Made by a program: the position numbers and the translations under genes
The notes under the pieces: generated by a model
Database searches by the model: none
What the model was told of the DNA's origin: nothing
The model's input: the letters and a program-made list of their open reading frames with translations, nothing else
Shown here: piece after piece, positions 1 to 7,809 of the stretch
Layout: each line of letters opens with the position of its first letter
Position numbering within the stretch: position 1 is the first letter of the stretch
DNA from: Synechococcales cyanobacterium 340R_concoct_173_sub
Lineage (GTDB): Bacteria; Cyanobacteriota; Cyanobacteriia; Leptolyngbyales; Leptolyngbyaceae
Direction of reading: 5' to 3'
Assembly (NCBI GenBank): GCA_025354065.1
Contig: JANXNM010000304.1
Coordinates: 1 to 7,809, forward strand
Length of the DNA stretch: 7,809 bases

Positions 1-9
1 AAAATTAAT

Positions 10-39
10 TTGACACAAGATCCACTTGCTGACGATAAT
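10..39 (+). promoter_or_regulatory. Probable sigma-70 type promoter of purA
   Basis: A perfect -35 hexamer TTGACA (10-15) is followed after an 18-bp spacer by GATAAT (34-39), five of six matches to the -10 consensus. Transcription would start near 46, leaving a leader of about 37 nt before the TTG start of purA. This is the best promoter match I found in the window. It suggests sigma-70 type housekeeping expression. No operator or riboswitch structure is evident in the short leader. Confidence 0.6.
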
Positions 40-73
40 TGTAGGCTGTTGAAAACTTTATCATTGTTTTTGA

Positions 74-1408
<1,335 letters not shown>

Positions 1409-1417
1409 CAATAGGTT

Positions 1418-1435
1418 TAAGAATATAAATTCTTA
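1418..1435. repeat. AT-rich perfect inverted repeat after purA
   Basis: The arms TAAGAAT (1418-1424) and ATTCTTA (1429-1435) are perfect complements around a 4-nt loop, 9 bp after the purA stop. The stem is weak and no T-run follows, so it is a poor intrinsic terminator. It may instead protect an mRNA end or be chance. A TTGACG at 1451-1456 further down could be part of a promoter for the L25 gene, but I see no convincing -10 at the right distance. Confidence 0.3.
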
Positions 1436-1499
1436 GGGTCTAGGTTAGGTTTGACGACGGTTTAAAATTTAGTGAAGACATCGAAGGTAGAGTTTCATC

Positions 1500-1796
1500 A
1501 TGGCAAAGTTTTCAATCGAAGCGACCAAGCGTCTTGAAGGTAGCAAACCCAACGCACTCCGACGCGCGAACCTTGTACCTGCGACGATGTATGGTCACAA
1601 TGGAACAGAATCTGTTCAATTGACCGTTGATGCAAAGACTATTGAATTGCTGATCCGTGATGCGGGCCGAGGCGGCGTGGTGGAATTGAATGTTCCTGAG
1701 TTGAACTACACCACCAGCGCACGAATTCAAGAAGTTCAGTCCCATCCTTGGAGGGGCTATTTGTATCACGTTAGCTTCAAAGCAAACAAAGCCTAA
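1500..1796 (+). CDS. rplY: 50S ribosomal protein L25 / general stress protein Ctc, short form
   Basis: Protein of the large ribosomal subunit that binds 5S rRNA. The 98 residues show the L25 N-terminal pattern: a basic start, then RR-x3-VPA (21-28) and YG (31-32), followed by a beta-rich core and a C-terminal VQSHPWRGYLYHVSF (79-93) that corresponds to the family's conserved closing strand. It is the short, E. coli-like version and lacks the extra C-terminal domain of the longer TL5/Ctc proteins. The ATG is preceded by GAAGGT at 1483-1488. It lies 91 bp after purA on the same strand, and a strong terminator closes the pair, so readthrough from purA is possible. The assignment is firm; whether it acts mainly in the ribosome or in stress as Ctc cannot be told from sequence. 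Confidence 0.93.
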   Translation: MAKFSIEATKRLEGSKPNALRRANLVPATMYGHNGTESVQLTVDAKTIELLIRDAGRGGVVELNVPELNYTTSARIQEVQSHPWRGYLYHVSFKANKA

Positions 1797-1820
1797 GTTC
1801 TCTTTTTAGATTTGTTTTAA

Positions 1821-1866
1821 TAAAAACCGTACTTTTCTTTAATGCGAAGGTACGGTTTTTATTTTA
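1821..1866 (+). terminator. Intrinsic terminator after rplY
   Basis: A 12-bp perfect stem is formed by TAAAAACCGTAC (1821-1832) and GTACGGTTTTTA (1850-1861). The 17-nt interior can pair further (TTTTC with GAAG-type pairing). The right arm runs into TTTTTATTTTAA. The A-run before the left arm means the structure can also act on the opposite strand. It lies 24 bp after the L25 stop and closes the purA-rplY unit. Confidence 0.85.
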
Positions 1867-1894
1867 AATCGATATTCATTGACGATCGAATTCT

Positions 1895-1902
1895 GCGATC
1901 GC
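1895..1902. repeat. HIP1 octamer (GCGATCGC)
   Basis: A complete GCGATCGC, the core of the highly iterated palindrome of cyanobacterial genomes. It is the only full octamer I found in the window, although the inner CGATCG is frequent. It supports a cyanobacterial origin. Confidence 0.8.
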
Positions 1903-2119
1903 GGCTTTACAGGTGAGGGAATTTCGTTTTGGGTGGCAAGCATAACTATTACTCGTTTGATTGCCTGAAGTTGGATTGAGGGGCAGACATAGTATTGTCA
2001 AAGTGATTTTCACTAACTTTATCAAATCAATAAAATTAGGGTGGGAGTTCGATCGCTTAATTCAGCTAGGTTGAATAATAGTTGCATTTTTATGGGTAAA
2101 AGCGGTAATGATGAATAGT

Positions 2120-2174: not shown

Positions 2175-2525
2175 ATGCCAATCTTTGACCAACGTGGGCA
2201 GCAAGTAAATTATCAGTACAATGCTGCTGGCGATATTAACTTAGGTTCCGTCCAAAATCAGGCGCAGCTCATTGAGGAGCTTGGGAAGCTTAAATCTGAA
2301 CTTTCAAAAGCTGCTGAGGCTCAAGTGATAGATGCCGAAATCTTCACAGATGCTGATTATCAAATGACTAAGGCGATTCAACAAGCTAAAAAGCCAGAGC
2401 CGGATAAAAAAGGCATTATGGATCACTTAAATAACACGAAGTCTCTTCTAGAAGGTGTGAGCGCTGCAAGTGGAATTGCAACAGTCCTGAACGAAGTAGT
2501 TCAGATAGTTGTCAGTCTTTTTTAA
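2175..2525 (+). CDS. Small protein with N-terminal QxVxxQxNAAGxI tag and hydrophobic C-terminal helix
   Basis: Unrecognised 116-residue protein. Residues 4-21 carry the motif F-D-Q-x2-Q-x-V-x2-Q-Y-N-A-A-G-D-I, which the next gene's product repeats at the same position. Residues 28-50 look like an amphipathic helix or short coiled coil. A charged, proline-containing linker follows (71-80), and residues 90-116 are strongly hydrophobic, ending VVQIVVSLF, so the C-terminus could insert into or lie on a membrane. No signal peptide is present. The ATG has AGAGG at 2160-2164 as ribosome binding site. The second gene starts 26 bp after the stop, which indicates an operon. Gln/Asn-rich tags of this kind are used in bacterial and fungal NLR-type signalling to bring partners together. 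By analogy this could be a small effector or adaptor, but that is inference. Confidence 0.8.
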   Translation: MPIFDQRGQQVNYQYNAAGDINLGSVQNQAQLIEELGKLKSELSKAAEAQVIDAEIFTDADYQMTKAIQQAKKPEPDKKGIMDHLNNTKSLLEGVSAASGIATVLNEVVQIVVSLF

Positions 2526-2551
2526 GATGATTAAATTTTACGGGGCATACA

Positions 2552-4111
2552 GTGAGTAACTTTAATCAATCGAATCAAAAAGTAGACCGTCAGTTCAACG
2601 CAGCAGGACATATTATTGACAATAGGGTCAGAGTGGCAAATCATAAAATTGTCCATAATCATATTCCCGCGCCTCTTGAAACTATTAAGGAAGCATGGTC
2701 AATCACCTCAAATTGGTTTCGGAATTTGCTTCCCGAAAGGCGCGATCATTCTAGCATTGTGCAGTTTGATACCAATCATCATAGAGAAATAGAGAGAATT
2801 GCAAGTGAGAGATTAGAATTAGCAAAAATAGATTCAAGTCGTCGAGCCGATGCTCAAAATAGATTGATTCAACTTAAAGAGGAAGAGAGGACGCTTCAGA
2901 AAGCAAAGTTTGAATGGGAAAAATCAGTTGTTCAAGAAAATTTGAGACTGATACGGAATTCTCATGATCTTGCTATTGAGGCTAGTCGAAGAAATCATCA
3001 AAGCATAACAGATATGCACTACTTGCCCCTCCAAGGCAGTCGAGATGACATTATTGACTCTTTGTCTCAGGATGCTGGAAAATTCTTTATTATTTCATCG
3101 CCTCCGAAAGTTTTCCGCGACGATGTGCAAGCATTTAAATCATTGGAGGCTGAAATTCCACATGAATTATGCGATGCTATTAAGAAATACTATGGTGATG
3201 AAATGACAGAATCGGTCATTGGTTATAGAAATATATTTAATGGCCCAATTGATGAAATTAATGCATCGACTGTTGGAAAGTTTATAGCGCCAACCCCAAC
3301 ATTAATTTTTCACAGCCAAGTGACTTATCAGAAAGTCATTATATGGATAACTCTAACTCTTCCGGTAGTTGAATTAGTCGCTTCACAAGCACAATCTTCC
3401 GAACAACAATTCGATATAAAGATTCTTCAGGATAAATTTTCCCTACCAGCATGGAATTGGATGAATCTCAAGAAAGAACTTGAGGCAGAAGGTCAAGACT
3501 CTGATGCAACTATATTAGAAATAGTCTCAACTATTCACTTGATAGTAGCGCTATATTTTTGTGATTTGTATTGCTTAAAATTGAATCCTAACCATATCCC
3601 TAAATTATTTGAATTTTTAGCAGAACCTAGCTTTCCAGATCATTTACAGGCATGGTCTGAACCTCTAAAAAGTTCCTTAATAGAAGCACAGAAGAAAATT
3701 AAGGAAGAATTAGATAGAATAGTTGCTTTGGAAGTAAACTTAAGGCAAAGTCGCACCGAAAATTACAGTGATTACAGTGATTTTTCTAATTTTCCAGTTA
3801 TCGGTTCTGTAATTGGAATAATATTTTTGTTTACAATGTGTAGCCATCAATCTCCCAATATAACCGGAGGTAATGTTGGCACACAAAGCTTCATAGCGCA
3901 ACAGCAAGTTAGAACTGGAATAATTCAAGCAGATCGCGATGGTAAGGGTTCAGCTAGACTGCGTGTTGTTCCAGACGGTAAAATAATTAGCGAATTACTT
4001 AATGGTACTTCTGTAGTTATGGGAGAAGTGAGCAGTAATGGTAAATGGCAACGGGTCACTACTGAAAATGGAAAGTCTGGCTGGGTTTGGGCTGACTACA
4101 TTCAACAATAA
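2552..4111 (+). CDS. Tagged coiled-coil membrane protein with C-terminal bacterial SH3 domain
   Basis: Unrecognised 519-residue multidomain protein. Order: the tag F-N-Q-x2-Q-x-V-x2-Q-F-N-A-A-G-x-I (4-21) shared with the upstream protein; a His-rich stretch (31-38); a charged coiled coil (about 75-150); a central alpha/beta-looking domain (about 155-355) with IISSPPKV (180-187) and a helical, hydrophobic patch near 331-354; a second coiled coil (about 385-410); one short transmembrane segment (about 414-430); and a bacterial SH3 domain (about 456-518) ending GKSGWVWADYI. With no signal peptide, the likely topology is a cytoplasmic N-terminus with the SH3 domain in the periplasm, where such domains often bind cell-wall peptides. 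The GTG start is preceded by GGGG at 2542-2545. The gene is AT-rich and contains no CGATCG, unlike its housekeeping neighbours. I cannot name the central domain. Confidence 0.82.
   Translation: MSNFNQSNQKVDRQFNAAGHIIDNRVRVANHKIVHNHIPAPLETIKEAWSITSNWFRNLLPERRDHSSIVQFDTNHHREIERIASERLELAKIDSSRRADAQNRLIQLKEEERTLQKAKFEWEKSVVQENLRLIRNSHDLAIEASRRNHQSITDMHYLPLQGSRDDIIDSLSQDAGKFFIISSPPKVFRDDVQAFKSLEAEIPHELCDAIKKYYGDEMTESVIGYRNIFNGPIDEINASTVGKFIAPTPTLIFHSQVTYQKVIIWITLTLPVVELVASQAQSSEQQFDIKILQDKFSLPAWNWMNLKKELEAEGQDSDATILEIVSTIHLIVALYFCDLYCLKLNPNHIPKLFEFLAEPSFPDHLQAWSEPLKSSLIEAQKKIKEELDRIVALEVNLRQSRTENYSDYSDFSNFPVIGSVIGIIFLFTMCSHQSPNITGGNVGTQSFIAQQQVRTGIIQADRDGKGSARLRVVPDGKIISELLNGTSVVMGEVSSNGKWQRVTTENGKSGWVWADYIQQ
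3763..3780 (+). repeat. Tandem 9-bp repeat within the SH3-protein gene
   Basis: TTACAGTGA occurs twice in direct succession (3763-3771, 3772-3780), giving the peptide repeat YSD-YSD just before the membrane segment. It keeps the frame and probably reflects local slippage in a flexible juxtamembrane linker. Confidence 0.6.
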
Positions 4112-4311: not shown

Positions 4312-4434
4312 GTGTATACTCAAATTACCGTGCGAACCTCAAACGCAGATGCACTATCTTTGATTCATCAGGCCCATGATGAAAGCTGGGAAGAACTCTA
4401 TCTCTCCGTCATGGATCCAATGGATTTGTCATAG
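4312..4434 (+). pseudogene. 40-codon open frame, possible gene remnant
   Basis: An uninterrupted frame from GTG (4312) to TAG (4432-4434) has protein-like composition, including QITVRTSNADAL and DESWEELYLSVMDP. I do not recognise a family. There is no ribosome binding site before the GTG, and an in-frame TAA lies directly upstream (4309-4311). Its beginning loosely recalls the start of the 122-aa protein downstream (MAQLTIEIPDAL), but the match is too short to claim homology. It could be a genuine very small protein, the leftover of a decayed gene, or chance. Confidence 0.25.
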
Positions 4435-4510
4435 GACATCTGTTGCTGATCTAATCGTAGATTATCAAATCGGGTAAAATTAGCCTTATAAACTGATAGG
4501 TCAATAAATT

Positions 4511-4879
4511 ATGGCTCAGTTAACAATCGAAATTCCCGATGCATTATTACCGGAGTTGGAGCAGGTTCGATCGAAATTACCTATGCTATTGACTCAATGG
4601 ATTACTGCATCGCGATCGGTTCAACAAAACGTCGATCAAACGACTTCTCAGGAAGTGTTGAGCTTTTTAATGACACAGCCGACTCCACAAAATATTTTGA
4701 ATTTTAAAGTTTCGGAAAAAGCGCAGACCAGGTTAAAGATATTACTCGATCGTAATTATGAGGGTGGATTGAGTGAAGATGAGTCTTTTGAATTGGATGG
4801 TTATGAGCAATTGGATCAATTGATGCAAATGTTAAAAATTCAAGCTTATTCGGTTGTGCATCAGGACGTTATAGGCTAG
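4511..4879 (+). CDS. Hypothetical protein paired with an HNH endonuclease
   Basis: Unrecognised 122-residue soluble protein. It opens with a short beta strand (MAQLTIEIPDALL), a beginning often seen in small DNA-binding or antitoxin-like proteins, followed by mostly helical sequence. The C-terminal half is acidic (GGLSEDESFELDGYEQLDQL, about 89-108) and there are no membrane segments. The ATG follows GATAGG (4495-4500). The HNH nuclease gene begins 5 bp after the stop, so the two are almost certainly co-transcribed and translationally coupled. Frequent CGATCG sites show that it has the base habits of the host chromosome. From context it could bind, recruit or restrain the nuclease, but no sequence feature proves an antitoxin role. 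Confidence 0.8.
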   Translation: MAQLTIEIPDALLPELEQVRSKLPMLLTQWITASRSVQQNVDQTTSQEVLSFLMTQPTPQNILNFKVSEKAQTRLKILLDRNYEGGLSEDESFELDGYEQLDQLMQMLKIQAYSVVHQDVIG

Positions 4880-4884
4880 ATTTT

Positions 4885-5298
4885 ATGCCATCAGAAGTTA
4901 GTGCATCGTTGCGTCGATCGGTGATTGAACGATCCCAGGTAAAATGTGAATATTGCAAGCTTCACCAAGATTTTTCAATCTATACCCACGAGATCGATCA
5001 TGTGATTGCAATGAAACATGGTGGGAGAACAGTGCTTGAGAATTTAGCCTTATCCTGTTTGTCTTGTAATCGTCATAAGGGTTCCGATTTAACGAGTTTT
5101 GATCCACTGACGGGGGATGTGACCCGGTTATTTGATCCCCGGTCGCAGGTCTGGGCAGAATATTTTGAACTCGATCGTGGACGCATTCAAGGTTTGAGTG
5201 CGATCGGTCGAACAACAGTGATGTTATTAAAATTCAATACCCCGACGGCAGTTCTGAATCGTCAACTTTGGCAGCAGGTCCAATCTGATTTGGACTAG
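4885..5298 (+). CDS. HNH endonuclease
   Basis: Small stand-alone HNH-family nuclease of 137 residues, expected to cut DNA with a metal ion at the active site. Two CxxC pairs form the structural zinc site (Cys21/Cys24 in CEYC, Cys58/Cys61 in CLSC). Between them lies HEIDHVIAMKHGG (35-47), with the catalytic-type Asp38-His39. Asn53 in the EN-LALSC block and His64 in NRHKG complete the H-N-H set. All key residues are present. The rest of the protein is a compact extension (about 70-137) without a separate DNA-binding domain. The ribosome binding site is weak, consistent with coupling to the gene 5 bp upstream. No intein, intron or phage packaging genes adjoin it. The target is unknown. Confidence 0.92.
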   Translation: MPSEVSASLRRSVIERSQVKCEYCKLHQDFSIYTHEIDHVIAMKHGGRTVLENLALSCLSCNRHKGSDLTSFDPLTGDVTRLFDPRSQVWAEYFELDRGRIQGLSAIGRTTVMLLKFNTPTAVLNRQLWQQVQSDLD

Positions 5299-5302
5299 AT
5301 TC

Positions 5303-5725
5303 TCAATTTAACAATCTCAAAAATTCGATTGCCAACCCATCGGGATCAGCTAAAAACGCCACCTCATACCACCGATCGCCAATCTGCTGTTTTTGCGGAT
5401 CCAGTAGCACCGTCGCCCGCTGACCGATCGTGCTCAACCGTTCCTGAAACATCGTTACCCAATCTAGCAAACTCTCAGCAATGCCTATCCGGGCCACATC
5501 AAACGACAAATGATAGTAGCCCACATAATGTTCATCAAAAAAAGCATCGACCGCAGGCTTCGGCTCAGGAATTTGGATTAATTCTAGTCGCCCCCCTAAT
5601 CCTTCCATCCAACAGGCTAACGTCGTACCCGCCGTGAACCGATCGTTCACCTGAAATCCAAGTTGTTCATAGAACGCGATCGACTTAAAAATATCCGCCG
5701 TCCGAATCGACACATGATGCAGCAT
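5303..5725 (-). CDS. VOC family (glyoxalase/dioxygenase fold) protein
   Basis: Single-chain vicinal oxygen chelate protein of 140 residues, with two beta-alpha-beta-beta-beta modules. It opens with the classic LHHVSIRTAD and FYEQLGF block and ends with ADPDGLAIEFLRL. Counting from the ATG, the four expected metal ligands are His4, Glu48, His72 and Glu134, so a metal-dependent lyase, isomerase or dioxygenase-type activity is likely. The substrate cannot be told. The start is the ATG at 5723-5725, preceded on this strand by GGAG. A TTG directly before it (5728) would add one residue. The stop of the upstream gene lies 6 bp away, so they form an operon. The stop codon is 4 bp from that of the convergent HNH gene. 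Confidence 0.9.
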   Translation of the reverse strand: MLHHVSIRTADIFKSIAFYEQLGFQVNDRFTAGTTLACWMEGLGGRLELIQIPEPKPAVDAFFDEHYVGYYHLSFDVARIGIAESLLDWVTMFQERLSTIGQRATVLLDPQKQQIGDRWYEVAFLADPDGLAIEFLRLLN

Positions 5726-5731
5726 CAATCC

Positions 5732-6241
5732 TTACTCCAAAAGTCGAAAGTAAGGATAACGTACTGGCGCACCTGGCTCTTTCTCTAGATCAAAATTAAT
5801 CACATCCCACCGAGGCTCAACTGAGGCTTCCACACTAAACTCCACTGGAAGTCCATACAGCTTCGGCATTTGAGCATCCAAAGAGTCACGCCAAGGGGTA
5901 CTGCGTTCTAAATAGGTACTCACCAACTCCTGATAGCGCGCTGCAATAATTACCTTTGTAGCCCGATAGCCCTGGGTATATAGCCGATCGAGTGCCTCGT
6001 GAATTTCAAATCGAATGCCATCAGGATGGTTATGTTGGCGATACCATTCATCCTTCCACAATCGCCAATGTCGCCCTGACTGGAGATGAACTAGCTCCTC
6101 CGCTTTGGGATCCGCCTCAAACGCACCATGACGTGGACATAGATAGGTGTCTGTCAGAGTCAAGGCTGGAATAACCTGTCGGCAATGCGGACAAGAAATC
6201 TCAGCGCCATAGATGGGATATTGCAAGAGCAAACTATTCAT
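5732..6241 (-). CDS. TIGR02652-like conserved cyanobacterial zinc-ribbon protein
   Basis: Protein of 169 residues that I recognise as resembling the TIGR02652 family, a cyanobacterial family of unknown function and about this length. Near the N-terminus a C-x2-C...C-x2-H set (Cys17, Cys20, Cys35, His38, within [19 protein letters not shown]) is a likely zinc-binding ribbon, followed by HGAFEADP. The rest is mixed, rich in Trp, Arg and Tyr, with no membrane segment. It is the first gene of a minus-strand pair with the VOC protein, and diverges from the carbonic anhydrase-like gene across 148 bp. The ATG start fits the family's usual beginning (a few residues, then QYPIYG). No strong ribosome binding site is seen. 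Its role is unknown. Confidence 0.85.
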
Positions 6242-6321
6242 ATCATCTGAAACTTATAGAGAGGATATTAAGCGGGTTCCAGGAGGATGCCAAACTCGTA
6301 GAATATCTGAGTTGCTCCACT

Positions 6322-6339
6322 ATTATAGCGATGTATATT
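6322..6339. promoter_or_regulatory. Divergent promoter elements between the TIGR02652-like and carbonic anhydrase-like genes
   Basis: On the minus strand, a perfect TATAAT occupies 6327-6322, about 80 bp before the ATG of the TIGR02652-like gene, but the -35 region is poor. On the plus strand, TATATT (6334-6339) lies 16 bp after TTGCTC (6312-6317), giving a likely start near 6346 and a leader of about 44 nt for the carbonic anhydrase-like gene. The two -10 boxes almost abut, so polymerase binding on one side may affect the other. Confidence 0.4.
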
Positions 6340-6389
6340 TGTTGCGGTATTCCTCCTCCATCAATTTGTCACAAACTCCCCGAATCACT

Positions 6390-6941
6390 ATGCCTCCTGC
6401 AAACTCCGGCCCTTCTACTAATTCCGGTCCAACCTATTGGCAATCCCCTGATTTAGCCAATGCCACATTCATTGCCCCCAATGCGACAATCGTTGGTCAC
6501 GTTACGCTTGGTGTTGGTGTAAGTATTTGGTATGGGGCGGTTCTTCGTGGGGATCTGGAATCTATTATTATTGGCGATCGGAGCAATATCCAAGATGGGG
6601 CAATTCTCCACGGCGATCCCGGCCAACCTACCATTCTGGAATCCGACGTGACCATCGGCCATCGCGCCATTGTCCACAGTGCCCATATCGAATCCGGTTG
6701 CTTAATTGGTATGGGCGCTATAGTGCTTGATGGCGTTCGAGTTGGATCGGGCAGTATTATCGGTGCGGGGGCTGTTGTAACTAAAAATGTGCCACCCCGA
6801 TCGCGTGTTGTCGGTGTCCCTGGAAAAGTCATTAGTCAGGTCAGTGATACTGAGGCCCAAGAACTGATTGCCCATGCGAACCACTATGAAAAACTTGCTC
6901 AAGTTCACAATGGTACTGGAATAGATTTAGGATTTCACTGA
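6390..6941 (+). CDS. Gamma-class carbonic anhydrase family protein
   Basis: A 183-residue left-handed beta-helix protein built of hexapeptide repeats (about residues 27-145). It closes with [21 protein letters not shown] and a C-terminal helix. The three zinc-binding histidines of the gamma class are present at 74, 91 and 96 (ILHGD, GHRAIVH), along with the conserved Arg53, Asp55 and Gln68. It is probably a soluble trimer. Members interconvert CO2 and bicarbonate, but many homologues of this short type show little activity, so function is less sure than fold. I chose the ATG at 6390. The frame is open back to 6213, but that would overlap the start of the divergent gene and add a non-homologous extension. 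No clear ribosome binding site precedes 6390. The first residues contain a repeated NSGP. Confidence 0.9.
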
Positions 6942-7048
6942 GTTTCAACTTTATTAGCCTCAAGCTTGTTAAACTTTGTTGGAAATAAGATTGGCAAAAA
7001 CTATTTCAGAAGATTGGGCTGTAAAGGGTTTAAGCGATATTACTATAA

Positions 7049-7087
7049 AACTGAAACCCTCACTCAGCAAGGATTTCAGTTATTTTA
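7049..7087. terminator. Bidirectional intrinsic terminator
   Basis: AACTGAAA (7049-7056) pairs perfectly with TTTCAGTT (7074-7081). After one C-A mismatch, CCT (7058-7060) pairs with AGG (7070-7072), leaving a 9-nt loop. ATTTTAG follows on the plus strand and GTTTTATAG on the minus strand. Lying between the convergent carbonic anhydrase-like and DUF4436-like genes, it can serve both. Confidence 0.65.
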
Positions 7088-7130
7088 GATAAAGTCTAAT
7101 ATTGCGATACTTTATTTTCTTGCCCCTCCC

Positions 7131-7809
7131 TTAGCTAGGCTTTTTATAGCGAGTTAACCAAGTAGAAAATAAAAATGGCATCGAAATAGCCACTAAAGCT
7201 TCTGCCCAAAAGAAGGCTAAAAAGTCAGATAAGCCTCCAAGAGGAGGTACGCCAGGTTGAAGATTTCGTACTGCGGGCAAGGCGAATAACATACCTGCAA
7301 TCAGCGTAAACATGCCAAATTCAATAGGACGCGGTTGCCAAATTACTACCATTGACATTGTGAATACTACTAAGCCAATCAACCACATGGCAAGCATTAA
7401 GAAGATAGAAAATGATTTAGTGATCACCGATCGCGACGTTTGCACTCGCAGACCAAGATAACTGTTAGATGATTCAAACTCATTTTTGGGGATGAGATCA
7501 ACATCAATGTTATAACCGGAGATTGCTCCATAAAAATGCAGAGATATCGGAATCTCTTCTTTTTCATCTTTAGGGTTTGAAAAGGAGAGATAAAGGTCTG
7601 ATTTATGTATATCAAAGGGATAATCACTGACCCGACCATCTAACGAGATTGAGCCTGTCACAGTTTCAGGAATTCGATTATTCTCAAGAGTAACTTCAGA
7701 TTTACCACTTTCAATACCTGTAAAAAACTTTAACTCTTTTGTAAGGCGGTCATTTTTGTCGTATGTTCCTTCTGGTTTAGCTGAAAAACGAATATTCATC
7801 TCTCCTTTA
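7131..7809 (-). CDS. DUF4436-like membrane protein, probably 5'-truncated by the window end
   Basis: The visible part resembles DUF4436 proteins, a family of unknown function. Counting from the in-frame ATG at 7799: a soluble beta-rich part (1-125) with DYPFD (59-63), a first membrane helix (about 130-154), a second (about 161-178), then the conserved run LPAVRNLQPGVPPLGG (174-189) and a third helix (about 191-213). The C-terminal tail is basic (RYKKPS). The frame stays open to the window edge (K-G-E before the ATG). Family members usually have a longer N-terminus with another membrane helix, so the real start is likely outside. The AAAGGAGA before the ATG looks like a ribosome binding site but sits only 1-2 nt from it, too close to be convincing. 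If the ATG is right, the protein is 222 residues. Confidence 0.75.
   Translation of the reverse strand, partial: KGEMNIRFSAKPEGTYDKNDRLTKELKFFTGIESGKSEVTLENNRIPETVTGSISLDGRVSDYPFDIHKSDLYLSFSNPKDEKEEIPISLHFYGAISGYNIDVDLIPKNEFESSNSYLGLRVQTSRSVITKSFSIFLMLAMWLIGLVVFTMSMVVIWQPRPIEFGMFTLIAGMLFALPAVRNLQPGVPPLGGLSDFLAFFWAEALVAISMPFLFSTWLTRYKKPS

Follow-up and report, generated by a model that had tools for sequence, protein, structure and literature searches.

Why should two adjoining and otherwise unlike proteins begin with much the same short sequence? The question is raised by P1 and P2, the products of consecutive genes in a stretch of DNA of 7,809 nucleotides (nt), here called the window, from the Synechococcales cyanobacterium 340R_concoct_173_sub (assembly GCA_025354065.1, contig JANXNM010000304.1). 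The answer that appears probable, by analogy and with a better than even but far from overwhelming chance of being right, is homotypic recruitment, N-terminus to N-terminus and probably amyloid-like: P2, a putative membrane sensor, would gather the small helical P1 through the tag that both proteins carry. The tag is likely a plug that recruits P1, because matched tags recur with immune-type receptors and because both genes of distant loci carry one and the same other tag.

The match itself is not in doubt. Ungapped alignment of residues 4-21 yields 10 identities in 18, all of them at the positions given by the original prediction, with D/N at 5 and Y/F at 15; "Q/N-rich", as the tag was then labelled, fits only mildly (6 of 18 residues in each). 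Likeness outside the tag had been denied, and past residue 55 none is found: there P1 and P2 align locally with a score of 35, inside the 17-37 of 18 other pairs. Ten or more identities at equal offset are never reached in 20,000 composition-keeping shuffles of residues 2-31 (maximum 8), nor at any offset in 5,000 such shuffles (maximum 9). Among 3,336 same-locus pairs of mechanically called open reading frames (ORFs; 302 of them, from related contigs) a single one reaches 10, and it consists of two similar ORFs of 140 amino acids (aa) in locus L004 that are apparently homologues. When ORF pairs are pooled over loci, 12 of 12,876 reach 10 (maximum 18); homologous ORFs of different loci were left in that set, and its 12 high pairs were not inspected singly. 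A chance origin of the match was considered and is ruled out by the shuffles and the same-locus ORF pairs. Nor is the tag a recent DNA copy, since only 34 of 54 nt are identical between the two tags (9 of 18 third positions) and 5 of the 10 shared residues are encoded by unlike codons. P1 and P2 are likely made from one transcript, to judge from the short gap between their genes (Table 1); the spacing is at most 56 nt in 17 of the 21 tag-sharing pairs analysed.

Conservation is concentrated in the tag, which stands apart from the folded parts of both proteins. P1 has 86 database matches, itself counted; in alignment A1, which takes 36 of these, mean conservation is 0.89 in the tag vs 0.63 after it, and 7 of the 9 invariant columns fall within residues 4-22. 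The AlphaFold model of P1 (prediction confidence, pLDDT, 81.8) has helices at residues 29-48, 54-72, 78-92 and 96-115; the tag region, residues 1-20, lies outside this bundle, with block pLDDT values of 50-51. P2 has 21 matches, again with itself counted (20 of them in alignment A3, which leaves out P0089). Its near, full-length homologues (15 with P2 included; P0089, P0102, P0104 and P0106 lack the N-terminal end and were omitted, and P0105 and P0107 were set apart) keep F4, Q6, Q14 and N16 without exception; Q9 and V11 are kept by 14 of the 15, and a variable linker follows (conservation 0.45 over residues 17-40). The pLDDT of P2 is about 30 over residues 1-30 and stays below 50 up to residue 35. 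A larger folded domain common to both proteins, which would have spoken against a tag, is not seen: the tag lies outside the confidently modelled parts of P1 and P2, a position that rules out its being a piece of such a domain.

Is the tag, called type A below, peculiar to this pair? One genome per species was scanned with a pattern lying inside the tag, and 79 stretches were found, 14 of them encoding P1 relatives (the 65 that do not were not inspected; tagless P1-like proteins are invisible to such a scan, because of where the pattern lay). A tagged neighbour gene is present in 11 of the 14 P1 loci. Found as it is in loci of Cyanobacteria, Chloroflexi and Bacteroidota, the tag is not confined to the window. 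Ten loci (L002-L008, L010, L013, L014) have a free-standing P1-type gene and then a second tagged gene. In L002, which is nearly identical to the window, the second gene encodes a P2 homologue (SH3/membrane protein), in L003 an unclassified protein of 132 aa, and in L010 one that is coiled-coil-like. The partner is TPR-like in the other seven, L004-L008, L013 and L014, the last from Chitinophaga eiseniae, a Bacteroidota (the TPR matches of the L004 partner, the sole one tested, are under the Pfam cut-off). L012 (Chloroflexi) has a caspase-tag-bundle gene, its frame split in the assembly, ahead of an EAD10-tag-NTPase (nucleoside triphosphatase) gene that ends at the contig edge; EAD10 and AAA_16 are above the Pfam cut-off in the latter, NB-ARC and NACHT below it. 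In L009, close to a contig end, the caspase-tag-bundle protein is intact; the AbiTii-tag-bundle protein of L011 has no tagged neighbour; and L015 is a decayed tag-bundle locus. All 18 tags of alignment A2 (hand-chosen rows from these loci and the window: 11 partners of unrelated kinds, 7 of P1 type) keep Q3, Q6, V8, Q11 and N13. In the search results 8 P2 clusters, the window included, each agree with a P1 cluster in the length of the longest contig, a hint, short of proof, that they are on the same contigs.

Fusion to immune-type domains had been foreseen, and occurs. With the tag-bundle part of the L009 protein as query, the database yields 10 proteins, the query included, with a caspase domain in 4, AbiTii in 3, EAD1 in 2 and no Pfam domain in 1 (the AbiTii domain, PF18864, is present in the relatives P0113 and L011); L012, in which the tag adjoins an EAD10-NTPase, is to be added to these.

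(Some further observations on these loci: the seven TPR-like partners, from Cyanobacteria to Bacteroidota, are each followed by a third gene of 246-262 aa with hydrophobic stretches noted by eye, e.g., L004:8908-9687, which has no Pfam match above the cut-off in the two tested and makes a three-gene version of the module. L015 and L067 are two decayed tag-bundle loci of a Candidatus Thiosymbion genome, one of them with a second-tag remnant in another frame. Proteins with a type-A-like tag, FNQQGQNVG..., are encoded at L077 and L074 of genome G655; the L077 tag is in mid-protein, beside repeated GGN-type motifs, and such repeats may form a wider class that takes in the type-A tag.)

A second tag with the same arrangement comes from distant homologues of P2. 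P0107 has matches at 1e-20 in 3 of 388 genomes of the class (G001, G1063, G1099). The distant P2 homologues of G1063 and G1099 (loci L105 and L106) have no type-A tag, and P1 is absent from these two genomes at E <= 0.1. Directly upstream of each is a gene for a protein of 140-141 aa, and both genes of each pair start with a common other tag, QSINISGSxLxxSQFGxAGRDLTQ (type B). (The N-termini of P0105 and P0107 were taken for degenerate type-A tags, a notion that was dropped when they aligned better with type B.) Of 194 class genomes, 10 are matched at E <= 0.01 by a model made from six type-B tags; a small gene is paired with a partner gene in 9 of these. Reading 12 regions, those of the two seed genomes included, shows a gene of 140-152 aa with a tagged partner in 11; the remaining one, L133, is noise. 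(The small gene of L127 and the partner of L130 were missed by the tag model and recovered by reading the neighbours.) The partners are NACHT proteins above the Pfam cut-off in five loci (L128, which has two, L129, L130, L131 and L132), PDZ-tailed proteins in L125, L126 and L127 (by Pfam in L126; the other two are similar by eye), a 204-aa protein in L124, and P2-core proteins in L134, with SH3, and L135, with no Pfam match. The NLR-type association that had been anticipated for the type-A tag is thus seen with the alternative one. Both in P1 and in ten type-B small proteins, which would, from their sequences, be bundles like P1, the tag is confined to the first 46 residues. One type-B small protein (L128:5666-6121) gives a sub-threshold match to HeLo, the fungal prion-inhibition and propagation model of Pfam (14 bits, E 0.046, cut-off 23.2); the match is not significant and turns up in a suggestive place.

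Because NACHT receptors fill the partner slot in these sister loci, P2 sits in the receptor slot. Neither P1 nor P2 gives a Pfam match to an NTPase or to a RHIM-, HET-s- or PP-type motif, and "NTPase-less" fits the module better than "receptor-less", the original term. The other option offered then, a receptor elsewhere in the genome, found no support. In 12 locus-bearing genomes scanned for further tags (the L007 genome was not among them) matches below 1e-4 are found only at the loci already described and, in G441, at another copy, which is decayed; since the A2 model was built from loci that it later scanned, what is informative here is solely that no further matches appear.

Do the two tags of a pair vary together? 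When the first 50 residues are aligned, the true pairs, 21 in number, score 57.0 on average and re-dealt ones 35.4, and none of 20,000 re-dealings reaches the true-pair score. When partners are re-dealt only within tag type, 1 in 20,000 does so, and after thinning to 17 pairs 35 in 20,000. Type B, which gives 2 in 20,000 alone, is the source of this within-type signal. It appears, from the sequences, that the tag has been exchanged jointly in both genes.

(A technical note: these statistics ignore the kinship of the genomes. The permutation left out L002, a near copy; L012, which has internal tags and a split frame; L009 and L011, in which no pair is seen; L015, which is decayed; and L133, noise. 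An earlier permutation without L127 and L130 gave 5 in 20,000 within type, where their inclusion gives the figure stated above.)

Table 1. Coordinates of the gene pair, its tags and its predicted parts in the window.
Feature	Position (nt)	Strand	Remarks
P1	2175-2525	+	ATG start, 116 aa; predicted to be the effector/adaptor of the pair
P2	2552-4111	+	GTG start, 519 aa; predicted sensor side of the pair
P1-P2 gap	2526-2551	+	26 nt
Type-A tag of P1, residues 4-21	2184-2237	+	FDQRGQQVNYQYNAAGDI; conserved columns, low pLDDT
Type-A tag of P2, residues 4-21	2561-2614	+	FNQSNQKVDRQFNAAGHI; conserved residues, low pLDDT
Predicted four-helix bundle of P1, residues 29-115	2259-2519	+	AlphaFold; C-terminal helix hydrophobic, borderline
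Long helices of P2, residues 42-150	2675-3001	+	AlphaFold
Alpha/beta core of P2, residues 160-390	3029-3721	+	AlphaFold; common to WD40-tailed proteins
Predicted membrane helix of P2, about residues 411-432	3782-3847	+	Hydropathy 1.85
SH3_3 domain of P2, residues 468-518	3953-4105	+	Pfam SH3_3, 28.7 bits, 1.6e-06
Islet with P1 and P2	1944-4386	.	Absent, with flanks contiguous, from congener G002 (blastn)

P2 is predicted to span the membrane, with its SH3 domain, whose nearest solved chain is an endolysin (4krt), outside or on the envelope side. Homologues have a hydropathy of 2.07-2.85 at the site of the membrane helix in 3 of 4 cases and of 1.56 in P0105; a core stretch of P2 itself (residues 319-337) is slightly more hydrophobic (1.92) than the predicted membrane helix, and the AlphaFold model has a low-confidence linker, with no confident helix, at about 411-432. 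The P2 core is present in 16 of 386 cyanobacterial genomes, i.e., in 15 besides G001, in frames of 650-759 aa; the proteins that were read, in 8 of the 15, have a tagless N-terminus and WD40-like repeats after the core (WD40 by Pfam in 4 of 4 tested). A search for P1 in the same 15 genomes finds none at E <= 0.01 (G277 gives 0.0218, over the tagless part). The P2 core is, as these sequences have it, a module that takes varied C-terminal parts, as sensors do, and among the proteins read it is tagged only where a tagged partner adjoins.

The pair also appears to come and go together. P1 and P2 are both present in the nearest genome, G001. In G002, of the same genus, the sequences of window 1-1943 and 4387-7809 abut (in L147), and the 2,443 base pairs that hold P1 and P2 are missing. 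Two other congeners are uninformative: in G004 the match is limited to window 1-1777, and G003 breaks off 248 bases beyond its match, in sequence resembling neither continuation. The pair thus appears, by analogy with what is often seen for defence modules, to have been gained or lost as a unit. In the empty site of G002 there is an overlap of some 10 bases between the ends of the islet (window 1934-1943 and 4387-4396, similar and not identical), possibly the trace of an insertion or deletion event; a transposon origin was dropped, no target duplication being claimed and repeats not having been searched for. Window 4511-5298, downstream of the islet, holds a gene for 122 aa of unknown function and, 5 bases further on, an HNH endonuclease gene; this DNA is also found in G002.

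How might such a module work? The arrangement suggests the following scheme. P2 would span the membrane, with SH3 on the envelope side, and respond to a signal from the wall or from phage. Its cytoplasmic tag, once clustered, would template the tags of P1; the stacked tags, probably amyloid-like, would gather the P1 bundles, which may act by inserting their C-terminal helices in the membrane. In the fused forms it would be caspase or AbiTii domains that are brought together and activated, and the outcome would be cell death or dormancy.

The following observations weigh against homotypic recruitment of P1 by P2 and should be set beside it: 1) In type A alone (10 pairs) 7,945 of 20,000 re-dealings reach the true-pair score, so that the two tags of a true pair show no greater likeness than re-dealt ones, perhaps because P1 tags hardly vary; and relatedness of genomes may contribute to the co-variation in type B. 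2) The last helix of P1 is borderline hydrophobic (hydropathy of residues 98-116, 1.62), and comparison of the P1 fold with the PDB yields no decisive match. 3) Six of the 11 tagged neighbours (L004, L006, L007, L008, L013, L014) score below 12 bits or are unlisted by the first tag model, which was made from 49 of 56 rows (P0063, P0105, P0090, P0092, P0069, P0020 and P0023 were out); they were accepted as tagged because the key residues stand at the gene start. 4) The genome of L011, G438, has no second strong tag. 5) By hhalign the type-B small proteins show a weak kinship to the bundle of P1 (score 25.9, probability 34%; 30 column shuffles, which are a lenient control, do not exceed 15.7). 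6) The type-A tag is scarce: in 386 cyanobacterial genomes strong matches occur only in G001 (46 and 36.4 bits), and the others, at most 18.1 bits, were treated as noise (L023, one of these, looks like an ABC transporter by eye). Strong matches in 1 of 386 genomes also rule out the idea that the type-A tag is common among cyanobacteria, with many receptors in each genome.

Could the tag do something else? It might hold P1 and P2 together constitutively, through soluble tag-tag or tag-bundle contact, with no nucleated polymer. The low confidence of AlphaFold in the tag leaves room for that, as monomer predictions cannot separate a polymer from a dimer; what makes it unlikely, if still a serious contender, is the combination of a short matched motif on a receptor and a small helical effector, adjoining genes, and NACHT in sister loci, a combination that resembles the amyloid signalosomes reviewed in PMC7889193. 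Alternatively, P1 and P2 might not bind each other at all, their N-termini serving as peptides by which each docks on a third partner that they share, be it a scaffold, a chaperone, a lipid or a compartment. Conserved side chains (F, Q, Q, V, Q, N) spaced by free ones would suit a binding groove as well as a beta-arch, and one fused protein, in G438, has the tag in a genome that offers no second strongly tagged gene. Docking gives no reason, however, why both genes of a pair elsewhere should carry the same alternative tag, nor why this other tag should recur in the same gene arrangement in 9 cyanobacterial genomes; and nothing that visibly corresponds to the third gene of the 7 TPR-like loci stands beside P2 in the window, although conserved third genes were not searched for systematically. 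On balance docking on a third partner is improbable.

The shared N-terminus could, finally, be a trace of ancestry, left by gene duplication or by exchange of 5' ends and serving no joint function. Likeness limited to the 5' ends of adjoining genes is what this would produce. Differing codons at half of the identical residues, the stronger conservation of the tag than of the rest of P1, its occurrence in three phyla and a different tag common to both genes of the distant loci make such a trace highly improbable.

Homotypic recruitment through the tag invites a more general proposal, put forward tentatively, its chances being somewhat short of even: that the loci make up a tag-coded signalosome family, in which one kind of small helical effector plugs, N-terminus to N-terminus, into interchangeable receptors (NACHT NTPases; PDZ or TPR-like modules; or, as in the window, a membrane sensor that lacks an NTPase and has a wall-binding SH3 domain), the tag being an address that is rewritten in both genes simultaneously so that the pairs are insulated from one another. 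Whatever its fate, type A and type B provide ready-made specificity controls for each other, and matched N-termini of neighbouring genes provide a search rule; surveys of C-terminal effector motifs could miss such pairs.

What known systems does the pair resemble? In having a short pairing motif with conserved polar and hydrophobic positions it is like the RHIM, HET-s and PP motifs. The RHIM core is [IV]-Q-[IVLC]-G, which is absent from the tags of both P1 and P2. EADs are homotypic adaptors that link effectors to a core, and are folded alpha-helical domains (PMC7159879, PMC8195603; Kaur 2020, 2021). EAD1 and EAD10 do accompany the tag in related proteins; unlike an EAD, the tag has about 20 residues and no confident fold, and neither P1 nor P2 has an EAD match in Pfam up to E 1. 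A kinship with AbiTii and with PDC-M14B of PADLOC is suggested by the AbiTii-tag-bundle fusions among the relatives; residues 9-114 of P1 match positions 161-264 of the 267 of PDC-M14B (23.3 bits), but P1 lacks the first 160 of these positions and, in Pfam up to E 1, the AbiTii domain PF18864.

The closest comparison is with the BASS/Bell-NLR bacterial amyloid signalosomes, for which ten BASS profiles are said to exist (reportedly Dyrka, 2020). The features in common (PMC7889193, PMC8086366, PMC12261475) are adjoining genes, a short matched motif, a small helical protein with a receptor, and cyanobacterial hosts. Bacterial amyloid signalling is there described as an NLR plus a C-terminally tagged effector (PMC7889193). 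The motif of the pair differs from this in being N-terminal in both proteins, and internal, before a C-terminal bundle, in the fused forms; P2, the receptor of the window, differs in having no NTPase match. The libraries used gave no Bell-named match; P1 is modelled as a helical bundle. Because the pair has no NLR, and because its motif is not at the C-terminus of the effector, it is not filed under BASS, from which it was set apart without use of the BASS profiles; the literature, as far as the search reached, suggests that both types of tag are undescribed. A 2021 review asks whether NLR-independent pathways use signalling amyloids (PMC7889193): that question becomes testable here in a unit of two genes and 2.4 kb. 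NACHT receptors, a feature shared with BASS, are found in the five type-B sister loci; the same slot beside the tagged small protein is filled by a NACHT receptor in some genomes and by an NTPase-free predicted membrane protein in others. If the latter does signal in the same way, amyloid-type immune signalling across the bacterial membrane without an NTPase would define a new class of receptor.

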